From contig NZ_AUMA01000003.1 of NCBI RefSeq assembly GCF_000422565.1, forward strand, positions 62,001-126,000: a stretch of 64,000 nucleotides of DNA, in the 5' to 3' direction. This stretch comes from Desulfovibrio aminophilus DSM 12254. Lineage in GTDB: Bacteria; Desulfobacterota; Desulfovibrionia; Desulfovibrionales; Desulfovibrionaceae. The notes below the pieces were generated by a model that worked only from the letters and a program-made list of their open reading frames with translations, searched no databases and was not told the origin of the DNA. The translations under genes were made by a program, and so were the position numbers. This document shows positions 34,209 through 38,764 of this stretch, piece by piece; the stretch's first letter is position 1, and each line of letters begins with the position of its first letter.

Positions 34209-34607
34209 ATGAGAGCGCTCATCGTCGAGGACGAGTTCACCAGCCGCAGGCTTTTGGAAAACATTCTCGCTCCCTATGCGGAGGGAATGTCCGTGACCAA
34301 CGGCGAGGAGGCCGTGGCGGCCTTCGCCGAGGGCTTGGCGGAGGGTAGACCCTTCGACCTGGTCTGCATGGACATCATGATGCCCGCCATGGACGGGCAG
34401 CAGGCGGTGCGGACCATCAGGCAACTGGAGAGCGCCTCGGGCGTGAAGCCCGCCGATGAGGCCAAGATCATCATGATAACGGCCCTCGACGATCCCAAGA
34501 ACGTGGTTTCGGCCTACTACCGCGGCGGCGCGGCCGCCTACCTGACCAAACCGATCAATGTCCGGGAATTTCTCGACCTGATCCGCGACATGGGACTCAT
34601 CCTCTGA
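34209..34607 (+). CDS. Single-domain response regulator (CheY-like)
   Basis: The 132-residue receiver has no output domain. The acidic pocket is E7/D8, the phosphoacceptor is D55 in VCMDIMMPAMDG, and the conserved Thr and Lys are in MITALDD and LTKPIN. It differs from the flagellar CheY encoded further right. No histidine kinase is nearby. Its stop overlaps the start of the Tim44-like gene as TGATG, linking it to the YcaO run. Confidence 0.9.
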   Translation: MRALIVEDEFTSRRLLENILAPYAEGMSVTNGEEAVAAFAEGLAEGRPFDLVCMDIMMPAMDGQQAVRTIRQLESASGVKPADEAKIIMITALDDPKNVVSAYYRGGAAAYLTKPINVREFLDLIRDMGLIL

Positions 34608-35344
34608 TGCGCGCACGGTTTTTCATTCCTTTCGCCGTCCTGTTTCCGCGTGCGGCCCAAGCCGCCGAAACGGCGCTGTCCGGGGTGGGCTTCATCCGTT
34701 CGTATCTCCTCGGGCAGGGCGACTTCGGAGGCCTGGACATCCTGGACATCATCGTCCTGGTCCTTGTGGCCGTGGTGCTCGTGCGGGTTCTGCGCAACGG
34801 CGGATTCCGGCGCGGTGGAGAGCCTCCTGAAGGCCGCGCGGAAGGGCCGGAAGCCGAACAACTCCGGGACGAGGAGAATCTGGAGGCGCGCCATGCCCGA
34901 GCCCGCGAGGCCTGGGCCCGCCTGTCCGGCGGGAGCGCCCCGGCGGGAGCTGGAGGAAATCCGGTTTCAACCCCGGCCTCGGCCGGTTCCGAGGAGCGGG
35001 AATTCCTGGCCGGAGCCAAGGCCGCCTTCGTTCGCATCCAGGGTTCCTTCGGCAAGGGCGATCTGGCCGACCTTTCCGGTTTCGCCACGCCCGAAGCCGT
35101 GGAGTGGTTCGCCAAGCGGATGGTGAATCCGTCGCCCGGTCCGCCGGAGATCGTCCTGCTGGAGGCCGAGGTTGTGGAGCGCGAGACAAGCGGCGGCCTG
35201 GAGCGTGTGCGTGTGCGCTACAAGTCTCTCATGCGCGAGGGGGCGGGACGTTCCGCGCCTCATGATGTCTCCGCCCTCTGGCGTTTTTCCCGCCGTGTCG
35301 ATGATCCGTCCTCGCACTGGACCCTTGAGGCCGTCGAGGAGTGA
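34607..35344 (+). CDS. Tim44-like domain membrane protein
   Basis: The protein has 245 residues. The first 20 resemble a signal peptide (FAVLFPRAAQA), a membrane segment follows at about 43-63 (LDIIVLVLVAVVLVRVL), and then a charged low-complexity linker. The C-terminal 120 residues (EFLAGAKAAFVRIQGSFGKGDL onward, split here for brevity) resemble the Tim44/MRP-L45 domain. The bacterial role is uncertain and may involve membrane protein handling. It is coupled to the response regulator upstream; the methyltransferase follows after 56 bases. Confidence 0.75.
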   Translation: MRARFFIPFAVLFPRAAQAAETALSGVGFIRSYLLGQGDFGGLDILDIIVLVLVAVVLVRVLRNGGFRRGGEPPEGRAEGPEAEQLRDEENLEARHARAREAWARLSGGSAPAGAGGNPVSTPASAGSEEREFLAGAKAAFVRIQGSFGKGDLADLSGFATPEAVEWFAKRMVNPSPGPPEIVLLEAEVVERETSGGLERVRVRYKSLMREGAGRSAPHDVSALWRFSRRVDDPSSHWTLEAVEE

Positions 35345-35400
35345 GGCTATTATCCCCCCGCCCGTGACACGGGCCATTCCGTTTCGTTCCGGAGGATCTC

Positions 35401-36117
35401 TTGCTGAAGGACTTCCCGCGTACAGCCTCCCTGGAGGAATTGCTGGACATCGCCCGGGCCGAGTTCGGGCCGGTGCGTTTCGAGGACGTGCAACTGGGCG
35501 ACGCCCGGCTGCATATTCTCCAGATCGAGGACATGCCGCGCTACCTGGACACCCTGGTGAACCGCGCACGTCCCGGTGAGCCCGTGCGGTTGCCGCTTTG
35601 GGCCAAGATTTGGACCTCGGCCCTGATCCTGGGCACGATGCTGCGGCGCTATCCGCTGCCCAACGGATCGGAAATACTGGAGATCGGCTCCGGCTGCGGC
35701 CTGTGCGGCTTGGCCGCGGCGGCGGGGGGGGCGAACGTGACCCTCTCGGACAAGGAGCCCGCCGCGCTCCTGTTCAGCCGCATCAACGCCCTGAAGAACG
35801 GGCTGGCCGACCGAGTGGAGGTGTGCCCCGCCGACTTCACCCGGGATCGTCTGGGCCGTCGCTTCCACAGCATCATCGGCTGCGAGGTGCTGTACGAGGA
35901 CGCGGTCTACGCTCCGCTGCTGGATTTCCTGGACGCGCACATCCTGCGCGAGGCCGGTTCCGAGGTCGTCCTGGCCCAGGACGGCGCGCGCCAGGGGCGG
36001 GTTTTTTTCGAGCGGGCCCGGGAGAAATACCGCCTTTTGCGCAAGGAGGTTCCCTGCGCCGGACAGGAAGGCACCGCCACGACCGTTCTGTATCGTTTGG
36101 GGGTCACGGGGTCATGA
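35401..36117 (+). CDS. Methyltransferase of the lysine/nicotinamide (METTL21-like) type
   Basis: The 238-residue protein probably starts at TTG, six bases after GGAGGA; no in-frame ATG fits better. A LPLWAKIWTSALILG segment precedes motif I, ILEIGSGCGLCGLAAAA, and the acidic motif VTLSDKEP. A CEVLYEDAVYAPLL segment follows, as in the family of protein-lysine methyltransferases around METTL21 and FAM86. The target is unknown. Its stop overlaps the YcaO start as ATGA, so the two enzymes are made together. Confidence 0.8.
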   Translation: MLKDFPRTASLEELLDIARAEFGPVRFEDVQLGDARLHILQIEDMPRYLDTLVNRARPGEPVRLPLWAKIWTSALILGTMLRRYPLPNGSEILEIGSGCGLCGLAAAAGGANVTLSDKEPAALLFSRINALKNGLADRVEVCPADFTRDRLGRRFHSIIGCEVLYEDAVYAPLLDFLDAHILREAGSEVVLAQDGARQGRVFFERAREKYRLLRKEVPCAGQEGTATTVLYRLGVTGS

Positions 36118-37841
36118 TCCGGCTCACCGATTGCTTCAAGGCTTACACCGAGGACCAGGACAAGGCCGCCTCGCCCGCCGAGACCGTGGCCCGGGTGCGC
36201 GGCCTGCTGGAGGCCCGTTGCCGGGGCGTCCTGGAGGAGACTCGGCGCGTGGACACGGGCCGGCTGGGCATTCCCGTGTTCCTGAGTGTCTGCGGCGCGG
36301 CCGCGCGCGACGTCATGCCCACGCGCAAGCAGATGGGCAAGGGCGCCTCGCCGGAGCAGGCCGAAGCCTCGGCGCTCATGGAACTGGTGGAGCGCTTCAG
36401 TTATTTCAGCTTTTGGGCCGATCCCGAGCATTTTCAGTCCTTGCGCTGGTCCGAGGCCAAACGCCGTTTTGGGGCCGGGCTCATGGACATTTCCAGAATT
36501 CTTCAGTCCGTGGGCGAGGATATGCCGCAGGAGCAGGCCGAGACGGTCATGGATATCGTGCGCTGGCGTTTCCACCCGGCCCTGGATGTGTCCTCCGGAA
36601 ACGAGGTCGCCGTGCCCTTGGACTGGTTCAAGAAGCTCAACGAGTTCAACGGGTCGTCCGCCGGAAACAGCTTCGAGGAGTCGATACTCCAGGGGGCCTG
36701 CGAACTGGTGGAACGACACGTCTCGGCCCTGGTGGACCGCAGCCGTCCCGTGCTGCCCACCCTGGACCCGGCGAGTTTTCATGACGAGGTGCTTGTGCGC
36801 CTCTGCCGGGCTTTCTCGGACAACGGCATCGTGCTCCTGCTCAAGGACATCACCTTGGGCATGCCCGTGCCCACCGTCGCGGCCCTGGCCTACGACCCGG
36901 CCTCTTTTCCGGCCATGAGCGAGATCGTCTTCACCGCCGGGACGGCCGCCTCTCCGGCCAAGGCCGCCATCCGGGCCGTCACCGAGGTGGCCCAACTGGC
37001 GGGCGATTTCCAGACCGGTCGGGTCTACGAGGCCTCGGGTCTGCCCAAGTTCACCGATCTGGGACAGATTCGCTGGCTGGAGCAGGGCCCTCTGGTTCCC
37101 CTGGATTCGCTGCCCTGTGTGGAGAACCGCAACATTTTGCGGGAACTGGAGGCCCTGGCCCGGGGGCTCGACCACCAGGGATACCGCCTCTACAGCGTGG
37201 ATACGAGCCACCCGGACCTGGGCGTGACCACGAACTACAATTTCGTGCCCGGCTTCGAATTCCGGGAACGCACGCCGAATCGGAGTCTGGGTCTGTTCGT
37301 GGGGCGCATCCTGGCCGAGGAGGCCCCGCCCGACGCCGCCGAACGCGGGCTGGCCGTGCTCGGCCGGACCTGCCCGGGTGCATCCTATCTGCCGTTCTTC
37401 ATGGGCCTGCTGCGCCTGCGCCAGGGCCGCAATCAGGAGGCGGCTGCGAGCTTCGCCGAGGCCGAGCCGATCCAGCCCGCCGCCGGGGAACGCGCCCTGG
37501 CGGCCTTCTATCAGGCCTACGCCATGACTCAGGCCGGATTGTGGGAGGAGAGCATCCCGCATCTGGACCGGGCCGCACTCCAGGATTCGGAGGTCAAGGA
37601 GTTCTTCAACCTGCGCGGGGTGGCGCGGTTCAAACTGAAGCGCTACCAGGAGGCCATGACGGACTTCCAGGAAGCTCTGGCCCTGGACAGCGGTTCCGCC
37701 CCGGACTTGGCCAACCTGGGCTTGTGCCACAAGTTCCTGGGGCACGCCGAAGAGGCCCTGGACTATCTGGGGACCGCATTGGAACTGGACCCTTCCCTGG
37801 ACTGGGCGCGCAAGCATTATGAGGAATTGTTGCGCGGCTGA
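36114..37841 (+). CDS. YcaO-domain protein with C-terminal TPR repeats
   Basis: The protein has 575 residues. YcaO enzymes phosphorylate a backbone amide to make azolines, thioamides or amidines. Mg-ATP residues are visible: GKGASPEQAEASA, then SALMELVERF (E90, E93, R94), and later EESILQGACELVERH (E188, E197, E200, R201). After about residue 410 come TPR-like helices, e.g. FFNLRGVARFKLKRYQEAM and ANLGLCHKFLGHAEEALD. E. coli YcaO also has a C-terminal TPR-like region. No PxPxP tail, TfuA partner or precursor peptide is seen. dsrC follows after 223 bases. Confidence 0.9.
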   Translation: MIRLTDCFKAYTEDQDKAASPAETVARVRGLLEARCRGVLEETRRVDTGRLGIPVFLSVCGAAARDVMPTRKQMGKGASPEQAEASALMELVERFSYFSFWADPEHFQSLRWSEAKRRFGAGLMDISRILQSVGEDMPQEQAETVMDIVRWRFHPALDVSSGNEVAVPLDWFKKLNEFNGSSAGNSFEESILQGACELVERHVSALVDRSRPVLPTLDPASFHDEVLVRLCRAFSDNGIVLLLKDITLGMPVPTVAALAYDPASFPAMSEIVFTAGTAASPAKAAIRAVTEVAQLAGDFQTGRVYEASGLPKFTDLGQIRWLEQGPLVPLDSLPCVENRNILRELEALARGLDHQGYRLYSVDTSHPDLGVTTNYNFVPGFEFRERTPNRSLGLFVGRILAEEAPPDAAERGLAVLGRTCPGASYLPFFMGLLRLRQGRNQEAAASFAEAEPIQPAAGERALAAFYQAYAMTQAGLWEESIPHLDRAALQDSEVKEFFNLRGVARFKLKRYQEAMTDFQEALALDSGSAPDLANLGLCHKFLGHAEEALDYLGTALELDPSLDWARKHYEELLRG

Positions 37842-37897
37842 ACTCGGAAGGCCGGTTGGGAAAAAAAGCGCAAAGTCCGCTTGAATGTGAGGTTCTG

Positions 37898-37927
37898 TTG
37901 ACAAAAAGCTGTTCAAGCGAGTATCAG
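37898..37927 (+). promoter_or_regulatory. Candidate dsrC promoter with inverted repeat
   Basis: TTGACA (37898-37903) and TATCAG (37922-37927) are 18 bases apart. CTTGAA (37880-37885) and TTCAAG (37912-37917) form an inverted pair flanking the -35 box and could bind a regulator. The predicted leader of about 130 bases contains the hairpin TCCGGG/CCCGGA near 38000. Confidence 0.5.
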
Positions 37928-38064
37928 TCAAAAAATTACTGCGCAAAAGTTTTCCGGCAAATGGCGGCGGCTTGCCGCTTGATGGATAGGGTAGATTCCG
38001 GGGCGGTCTTTTGTCCCGGAGAGAGGAAAAAGACCTGTTCCAACGCGTTATAGGAGGAAAACAC

Positions 38065-38382
38065 ATGGCTGTTGTGGAATTCAAGGGCAAGAAATTCGAG
38101 GTGGACGAGGACGGCTTCCTGCAGCGCTTCGACGACTGGAACCCCGAGTGGGTGGAGTACGTCAAGGAGTCCGAGGGCATCAAGGAGCTGACCGACAACC
38201 ACAAGAAGGTCATCGAGTTCCTGCAGGACTACTACAAGAAGAACGGAATCGCCCCCATGGTCCGCATTCTGTCCAAGGTGACGGGCTTCAAGCTCAAGGA
38301 AATTTACGAGCTGTTCCCGTCCGGTCCCGGCAAGGGAGCCTGCAAGATGGCCGGCCTGCCCAAGCCCACGGGCTGCGTCTGA
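38065..38382 (+). CDS. dsrC: DsrC, sulfur carrier of dissimilatory sulfite reduction
   Basis: The 105-residue protein has the invariant C-terminal arm GACKMAGLPKPTGCV with both redox cysteines, C93 and C104. In sulfate reducers DsrC accepts sulfur from sulfite at DsrAB as a trisulfide that the membrane complex DsrMKJOP then reduces. The two cysteines separate it from TusE-like sulfur-transfer relatives with only one. AGGAGG precedes the start, its own promoter lies upstream, and a terminator follows, so it is a highly expressed single gene. Confidence 0.98.
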   Translation: MAVVEFKGKKFEVDEDGFLQRFDDWNPEWVEYVKESEGIKELTDNHKKVIEFLQDYYKKNGIAPMVRILSKVTGFKLKEIYELFPSGPGKGACKMAGLPKPTGCV

Positions 38383-38536: not shown

Positions 38537-38764
38537 ATGAAAGAGAAAATTCATCCCAAGCTCCACGCAGCCAAGATCCGCTGCCACTGCGGCTTCGAAA
38601 TCGAGGCCAAGTCCACCAAGGGGCAGGTCGTGGACGTGGAAATCTGCTCCCATTGCCACCCGTTCTTCACGGGCAAGCAGCGTTTCGTGGACACCGCCGG
38701 TCGTATCGACCGCTTCCGCAAGAAGTACGCCAAGTTCCAGGAGCCCGGCGAAGCCGGGAAATAG
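38537..38764 (+). CDS. rpmE: 50S ribosomal protein L31, zinc-binding form
   Basis: The 75-residue protein carries the four zinc ligands of the C+ type: C-H-C in [16 protein letters not shown] and C-S-H-C in [15 protein letters not shown]. The C-terminal [12 protein letters not shown] is typical. It has its own promoter and begins a run with a DUF1385 gene, prfA and prmC, a neighbourhood seen in many bacteria. Confidence 0.97.

Follow-up and report, generated by a model that had tools for sequence, protein, structure and literature searches.

In a 64,000-nt stretch of DNA from Desulfovibrio aminophilus DSM 12254 (the window), a gene for a METTL21-like protein methyltransferase, a gene for a YcaO enzyme with a C-terminal TPR domain (YcaO-TPR) and dsrC form a conserved unit. 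On balance we lean towards the view that YcaO-TPR modifies DsrC, probably by forming a thioamide, and that the unit would be a DsrC maturation system. A fuller version is put forward more tentatively, at somewhat less than an even chance: a thioglycine at the base of the DsrC arm, formed by a dedicated YcaO-TPR in the sulfate reducers of the phylum, plus a methyl-lysine formed by the adjacent METTL21-like enzyme in most Desulfovibrionales. The region analysed covers positions 34209-38382 of the window, to which coordinates refer unless a locus or contig is named. A preliminary description of the sequence had placed five genes here, including a response regulator gene and a Tim44-like gene upstream, and gene calls and Pfam matches confirmed this arrangement. 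The response regulator and Tim44-like genes overlap by 1 base, the methyltransferase and YcaO genes by 4 bases, and 56 bases separate the Tim44-like gene from the methyltransferase gene. In the gap between YcaO and dsrC, a promoter and terminator scan revealed no sigma-70-like promoter and no terminator on the plus strand.

Gene order was examined in 199 sampled Desulfovibrionales genomes, where YcaO-TPR was found in 177, DsrC in 199 and a methyltransferase match in 157. The counts that follow were made among the matches listed, which covered 150 of the 177 genomes for YcaO, 129 of 199 for DsrC and 149 of 157 for the methyltransferase, with distances taken from alignment ends. The methyltransferase gene overlapped YcaO or lay at most 383 bases upstream of it in all 125 genomes with both genes; 25 further genomes with YcaO had no methyltransferase among the matches listed. 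dsrC was located 135-409 bases downstream of YcaO in 89 of 109 genomes, and these adjacencies span 22 of the 29 genera with YcaO and four families. Three of the seven remaining genera (g9, g21, g28) had no DsrC row among the matches listed. Where a genome carries at least two dsrC copies, one of them adjoins YcaO (21/21, the present genome included). By a rough estimate that ignores shared descent, the probability of finding two given genes less than 500 bp apart on the same strand of a 3-Mb genome is about 1.7e-4; the methyltransferase-YcaO-dsrC order is far beyond chance.

The same unit was visible in loci retrieved with the YcaO protein. Thirty-five loci were found, 33 of which (L004-L036) contain true relatives, while L037 and L038 match the TPR part only. 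Among loci with enough contig on the relevant side, YcaO is followed by dsrC in 26 of 33 and preceded by the methyltransferase gene in 24 of 31. The preliminary description had drawn the response regulator and the Tim44-like gene into the system, but these are kept in just 9/27 and 11/29 loci and are merely local neighbours. Its suggestion of a ribosomal target, taken from the vicinity of rpmE and prfA, fares no better (9/28 and 8/28). All four genes were therefore rejected as members of the unit, which persists while its flanks are reshuffled.

We then considered a phylum sample of 247 genomes, 11 within Desulfovibrionales and 236 outside. Full-length YcaO-TPR, defined by a score above 280 bits (G233, G315 and G371 were set aside), was present in 92 of the 247, with 34-44% identity outside Desulfovibrionales. 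Each of these 92 genomes has a dsrA match, that of G036 consisting of two fragments below the cut-off; one of them, G271, has no DsrC match. Outside the order, 81 genomes contain YcaO-TPR and dsrA, none YcaO-TPR only, 33 dsrA only and 122 neither (Fisher p ~1e-36, uncorrected for relatedness). When DsrC proteins were divided into close and distant ones at E 1e-45, a threshold picked after the data had been seen, YcaO-TPR occurred in 80 of 87 genomes outside the order with a close DsrC and in 0 of 30 with a distant one. In 16 of the 81 YcaO-TPR genomes, belonging to 9 of 33 families, a same-strand dsrC is found no more than 1.1 kb away, upstream of YcaO-TPR in family f18 and downstream in f32, f50, f57, f63, f68, f79, f84 and f93. 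The pairing of YcaO and dsrC thus crosses four families within the order and nine outside, and the neighbourhood is not one of close strains only.

The sequence of YcaO-TPR supports an ATP-using enzyme. Its YcaO domain spans residues 74-382, TPR matches fall inside approximately residues 435-565, and the ATP motif Sx6-7Ex3Qx3ExxER is present as SSAGNSFEESILQGACELVER at residue 181. This motif was found in 32 of the 33 extracted relatives; the exception, L025, is a truncated frame. The best NCBIfam model is TIGR03266, which describes McrA-glycine thioamidation, with 104.7 bits (156.5 in the relative L051) against an equivalog cut-off of 365 bits. The top Foldseek matches of the predicted YcaO-TPR structure are likewise Methanocaldococcus jannaschii YcaO structures; LynD, MusD and Escherichia coli YcaO chains rank above the first Methanopyrus kandleri YcaO chain. 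The E. coli-type uL16 enzyme (NF040716, 44.8 vs 700 bits) and an azoline cyclodehydratase (SagD, TIGR03604, 66 vs 219.25 bits) were rejected on their cut-offs. That no TfuA partner is present, as noted earlier for the neighbourhood, holds genome-wide: PF07812 had 0 matches in the whole genome, with Methanosarcina acetivorans as a positive control, and a TfuA-dependent thioamidation system was rejected. Some thioamide-forming YcaO enzymes come from high-sulfide organisms, and others generally rely on TfuA together with a thiocarboxylated carrier, according to the relevant passage of PMC13063428. The absence of TfuA here matches some thioamide-forming enzymes of high-sulfide settings, and we count it in favour of thioamide formation. 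For the methyltransferase, sequence matches in the PDB were METTL21A and METTL21B of the human type. Members of the METTL21-type family methylate protein lysines. DsrC scores above the cut-offs of both PF04358 and TIGR03342 and possesses both arm cysteines, Cys93 and Cys104, which we take to be CysB and CysA, respectively.

A mass shift of +42 Da on DsrC was reportedly seen by Gaucher in 2008. In a table of a Desulfovibrio vulgaris interaction study of 2011 (PMC3125180), the DsrC peptide LKEVYELFPSGPGK (LK*EVYELFPSGPGK) is listed in three pull-downs, in 3 of 3 with 'Trimethylation+Oxidation'. This peptide lacks Met, Cys, Trp and His. It includes the equivalent of Gly89, and its trimethylated lysine is the equivalent of Lys78. 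A second DsrC peptide in the table carries +42 on Lys48. Trimethylation was backed by a 59-Da neutral loss, and the +16 is left undiscussed in the relevant section (PMC3125180). An exchange of oxygen for sulfur differs from oxidation by 0.018 Da, corresponding to 11 ppm on LKEVYELFPSGPGK; in peptides that contain Met, a thioamide would be mistaken for oxidation (relevant passage of PMC13063428). In the open-licence PMC literature, PMC3125180 was the only one among the matches listed for DsrC trimethylation that concerns this DsrC, and the only paper found for DsrC arm peptides or a thioglycine in DsrC. A link between YcaO and DsrC was not found in that literature, where absence is not absence in print.

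Residue 89 of DsrC sits in FPSGPGKGAC, at the base of the C-terminal redox arm, and Gly89 is probably the likeliest thioamide site on the protein. Gly89 is present in all 66 readable DsrC rows from genomes with YcaO-TPR, 36 of them from within the order and 30 from beyond it; L008 and L025 end before this residue. Among genomes without YcaO-TPR, 30 rows from outside the order have Ala (21), Gly (8) or Lys (1), and 22 rows from inside the order have Gly (19), Ala (2) or Ser (1). The tree omits the distant paralogue L129, which is 38% identical and has Lys at residue 89, and the absence of YcaO in G191 and G196 was assigned by elimination. Of the 51 tree rows without YcaO-TPR, 24 have Ala or Ser at residue 89, and every non-Gly row on the tree lacks YcaO-TPR. 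In the tree of 117 DsrC rows, Gly89 changed four times. Within family f41, the genome with YcaO-TPR (G291) has Gly89, and the two genomes with a shorter YcaO only (G233, G315) have Ala89. At position 48, Lys is present in all 37 in-order rows with YcaO, in 20 of 22 in-order rows without it and in 53 of 60 rows outside the order. Lys94 was rejected as a covarying site: Arg occurs only in rows without YcaO (4/51 on the tree), yet as a single change.

Two groups of arm variants were also observed. In four Desulfovibrionaceae loci from genomes without YcaO-TPR (L083, L097, L098, L099; genomes G084, G168, G161, G150), Arg replaces Lys94 beside Cys93, and two of the four have Ala89 too, as if the constraint on the arm were relaxed. 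In family f81 (L107, L108, L113; genomes G399, G418, G380), the DsrC arm ends in KPEGC(V/A), and neither dsrA nor YcaO-TPR was found there.

The two proteins were further modelled with AlphaFold2. YcaO alone gave a predicted template modelling score (pTM) of 0.89 and a mean predicted local distance difference test score (pLDDT) of 93.4, and the natural YcaO...DsrC read-through a pTM of 0.76 and a pLDDT of 88.9 with a disordered linker. With DsrC present, the YcaO blocks 41-50, 171-180 and 291-310, to which many of the invariant residues belong, gain 9-15 pLDDT points; in these models the gain may hint at contact with DsrC.

In the mechanism that we infer, the +16 on the DsrC peptide would be sulfur, and its site, the makers of both marks and their role would be as follows. 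Using ATP, YcaO-TPR would activate a single backbone amide at the arm's base, within FPSGPGKGAC and most likely at Gly89. Sulfide, abundant in the cells, would then take the place of the amide oxygen, and a thioamide would form with no need for TfuA. In most Desulfovibrionales, the METTL21-like methyltransferase, the likely maker of the DsrC methyl-lysine in this order, would methylate Lys78 and/or Lys48. The marks would probably tune docking of the arm, with Cys93 and Cys104, on its partners; their loss should thus be tolerated and yet alter fitness, particularly under electron flow in the absence of sulfate. The preliminary description had proposed that a cellular protein is thioamidated and methylated near the DsrC pathway. 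Synteny, co-occurrence and the published masses fit this part. DsrC would be likelier as the substrate than as a supplier of sulfur to YcaO-TPR. DsrC is also a likelier substrate than a ribosomal protein.

Genetic data are available for DVU2210, the YcaO-TPR protein of D. vulgaris, whose target was unknown in PMC7774982. It has the same domain pair, and its ATP motif as printed there is nearly identical to that of D. aminophilus. The exchange S195R or a deletion of DVU2210, combined with loss of sat, leads to molybdate resistance, and the single deletion is still molybdate-sensitive and reaches a higher density in fermentation (PMC7774982). In rich medium, DVU2210 did not render E. coli molybdate-sensitive, and in sulfate medium either allele behaved alike (PMC7774982), so the phenotype may need a partner from the sulfate reducer. 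In 13 lines evolved in syntrophy, DsrC (G-score 74.7, no loss-of-function changes) and DVU2210 were both high-G-score genes, as given among the relevant parts of PMC8319347, PMC10102598 and PMC10128000. These genetics fit a non-essential tuning of DsrC, without proving it. In contrast to the locus described here, locus numbers suggest that DVU2210 is not beside dsrC (DVU2776), as in the other genomes of genus g3 listed.

Several observations weigh against modification of DsrC by this unit. Within Desulfovibrionales, dsrC is not adjacent to YcaO in 20 of 109 genomes (among the matches listed, with some further DsrC rows outside them), namely in genera g3 (9/9), g6 (2/2), g39 (1/1), g42 (5/5), g2 (2/7) and g13 (1/8); in g2 the methyltransferase is beside YcaO in none of seven genomes. 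Outside the order, dsrC is not adjacent in 65 of the 81 YcaO-TPR genomes, the two genes share a contig in only 29 of the 81, and no methyltransferase was detected beside YcaO in the 19 loci read there, apart from a 17.9-bit match on the opposite strand near L057. Gly89 is retained in 27 of the 51 tree rows without YcaO-TPR, and the tree test of Gly89 against YcaO was not significant, with too few independent pairs. Lys78 is conserved with or without the methyltransferase and does not track it. The AlphaFold2 confidence scores did not settle docking of YcaO and DsrC. In the relevant section of PMC3125180, the Mascot precursor tolerance was 100 ppm, modifications were taken from ProteinPilot and the site of the +16 is unstated; given a difference of 11 ppm, the published +16 cannot separate a sulfur exchange from oxidation. 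Nor is methylation specific to DsrC, given that ApsA, ApsB and RplL also carry methyl-lysines in the same table. The DVU2210 deletion strain grows on sulfate like wild type (PMC7774982). Finally, in a survey of 80 genomes chosen from a first list of 86, aprA was above the cut-off in 22 of 23 with YcaO and in 20 of 57 without (8/22 in the order, 12/35 outside), which counts against an exclusive link between YcaO and DsrC.

DsrC might act as a sulfur donor, its persulfide feeding YcaO-TPR, which would thioamidate another protein, a view that comes near to the preliminary description. We regard this as unlikely, although the same synteny and co-occurrence apply, TfuA is missing from the genome and DsrC falls within the sulfur-relay family TIGR03342. 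Free sulfide is plentiful in sulfate reducers, and the position that varies without YcaO-TPR is Gly89 and not a cysteine, as a donor needs. Moreover, the +16 was reported on DsrC itself (table of PMC3125180). A comparably low probability is assigned to a different target for YcaO-TPR, either elsewhere in the sulfate pathway (ApsA/ApsB or DsrAB, for instance) or on the ribosome, with the adjacency of dsrC reflecting a shared pathway or regulation. The distribution of aprA and the trimethyl-lysines on D. vulgaris ApsA and ApsB (PMC3125180) speak for it; however, the partner in gene order is dsrC, that table shows no unexplained +16 on ApsA/ApsB, and the score for a ribosomal-type YcaO lies far below the cut-off. 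Shorter YcaO paralogues in two genomes, at G284:C1:1525736-1527720 and G300:C164:2560-4637, likewise have a dsrC copy less than 600 bases away, which again speaks against it.

Three other explanations are clearly weaker. YcaO might act on DsrC without forming a thioamide, giving instead an azoline at Cys93 or some other product of amide activation; the +16 would then be ordinary oxidation. YcaO enzymes do make several products (relevant passage of PMC13063428), but an azoline corresponds to -18 Da and would remove the invariant arm cysteine Cys93, and the SagD cut-off was far from reached; we consider this highly improbable. Slightly less probable still is a gene order owed to shared descent and devoid of functional meaning: most of the 89 adjacencies in the order may stem from one event and the co-occurrence test is uncorrected for relatedness, whereas the flanks are reshuffled around a persisting unit, arrangements outside the order are separate and YcaO-TPR is strictly limited to dsrA genomes. 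Least probable is that DVU2210-type YcaO is chiefly an ATP-consuming activator of molybdate or another oxyanion, the hypothesis of PMC7774982, which draws on the resistance seen with S195R or deletion plus sat loss but leaves the dsrC linkage unexplained and does not agree with the E. coli results.

Modification of DsrC, our preferred reading, has parallels in known systems. The closest are the YcaO enzymes of methanogens that thioamidate a McrA glycine (TIGR03266; M. jannaschii 6pe3/6peu, M. kandleri 6ci7/6cib), which share the YcaO domain, the best curated score, the best Foldseek matches and a target, here proposed, that is a Gly in a central protein of anaerobic respiration. The present system differs in its score below the cut-off, its bacterial origin, its extra TPR domain and in having DsrC as neighbour and co-occurring protein. 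E. coli YcaO, which thioamidates uL16 at Met82 (relevant passage of PMC13063428), likewise combines a YcaO with a C-terminal TPR-type domain without TfuA and acts on a folded cellular protein; it is distinguished by the low model score found here, by a different partner and by the confinement of YcaO-TPR to dsrA genomes. The methyltransferase resembles METTL21-type lysine methyltransferases (PF10294) in its above-cut-off score and PDB sequence match; unlike these, it is bacterial and its gene overlaps YcaO, and lysine methylation of DsrC by it is putative. Thioamidation of proteins by YcaO is already known, for methyl-coenzyme M reductase (MCR) and uL16; the novelty would lie in the substrate, the methyltransferase partner and the lineage. 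Besides the thioamide of uL16, that of MCR is the sole characterised protein thioamide known to the authors of PMC13063428, as stated in the relevant passage, and one in DsrC would be the third. If the proposal is true, published D. vulgaris data already contain this thioamide, recorded as an 'oxidation' without explanation, and the deposited native DsrAB-DsrC crystals may show it. In dissimilatory sulfate reduction DsrC is the central carrier, and models of its cycle would need to accommodate a thioamide close to the redox cysteines. DVU2210, which was mutated when syntrophic lines evolved without sulfate and which plays a part in molybdate toxicity, would gain a native target, and the DsrC lysine methylation reported in 2011 a maker. 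The idea is testable at once: a DVU2210 deletion strain has been published (JW9479, from D. vulgaris Hildenborough JW710), and DsrC structures have been deposited, among them 2v4j, 2xsj, 3or1 and 3or2, which contain DsrC in complexes with sulfite reductase.

Table 1. Features of the analysed region and its surroundings, in window positions.
Feature	Position	Strand	Basis
Response regulator	34209-34607	+	PF00072, 70.3 bits
Tim44-like gene	34607-35344	+	PF04280, 40.1 bits
METTL21-like (Methyltransf_16) protein methyltransferase, TTG start	35401-36117	+	PF10294, 45.6 bits, cut-off 21
YcaO-TPR enzyme, putative DsrC thioamidase, DVU2210 ortholog type	36114-37841	+	PF02624, 191.3 bits, cut-off 25.7
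dsrC, putative substrate	38065-38382	+	PF04358, 129.7 bits; TIGR03342, 122.7 bits; both above cut-off
Codon of DsrC Lys78	38296-38298	+	Equivalent D. vulgaris lysine reported trimethylated (PMC3125180, Table 1); ungapped alignment with the D. vulgaris protein
Codon of DsrC Gly89, likeliest thioamide site (putative)	38329-38331	+	Gly pattern across DsrC rows
DsrC C-terminal arm, Cys93 (38341-38343) to Cys104 (38374-38376)	38341-38376	+	Sequence and alignment
rpmE	38537-38764		PF01197, 103.7 bits

The same genome encodes a second DsrC away from YcaO (G000:C3:254746-255060, minus strand), which is 98% identical to the window copy. A second YcaO gene is located on contig C1, approximately 22 kb before the window (L039:3398-5155, minus strand). 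Its product of 585 aa is TPR-free; the best NCBIfam model was SagD (105.3/219.25 bits), and no full equivalog assignment was obtained. In Desulfomicrobium-type loci, a MoaE-like gene is found near YcaO-TPR instead of dsrC (L023:11730-12101, plus strand; same family L015, L018, L019, L020, L032 and L034). The gene in L023 matches PF02391 with 43.5 bits and is possibly a link to sulfur transfer.

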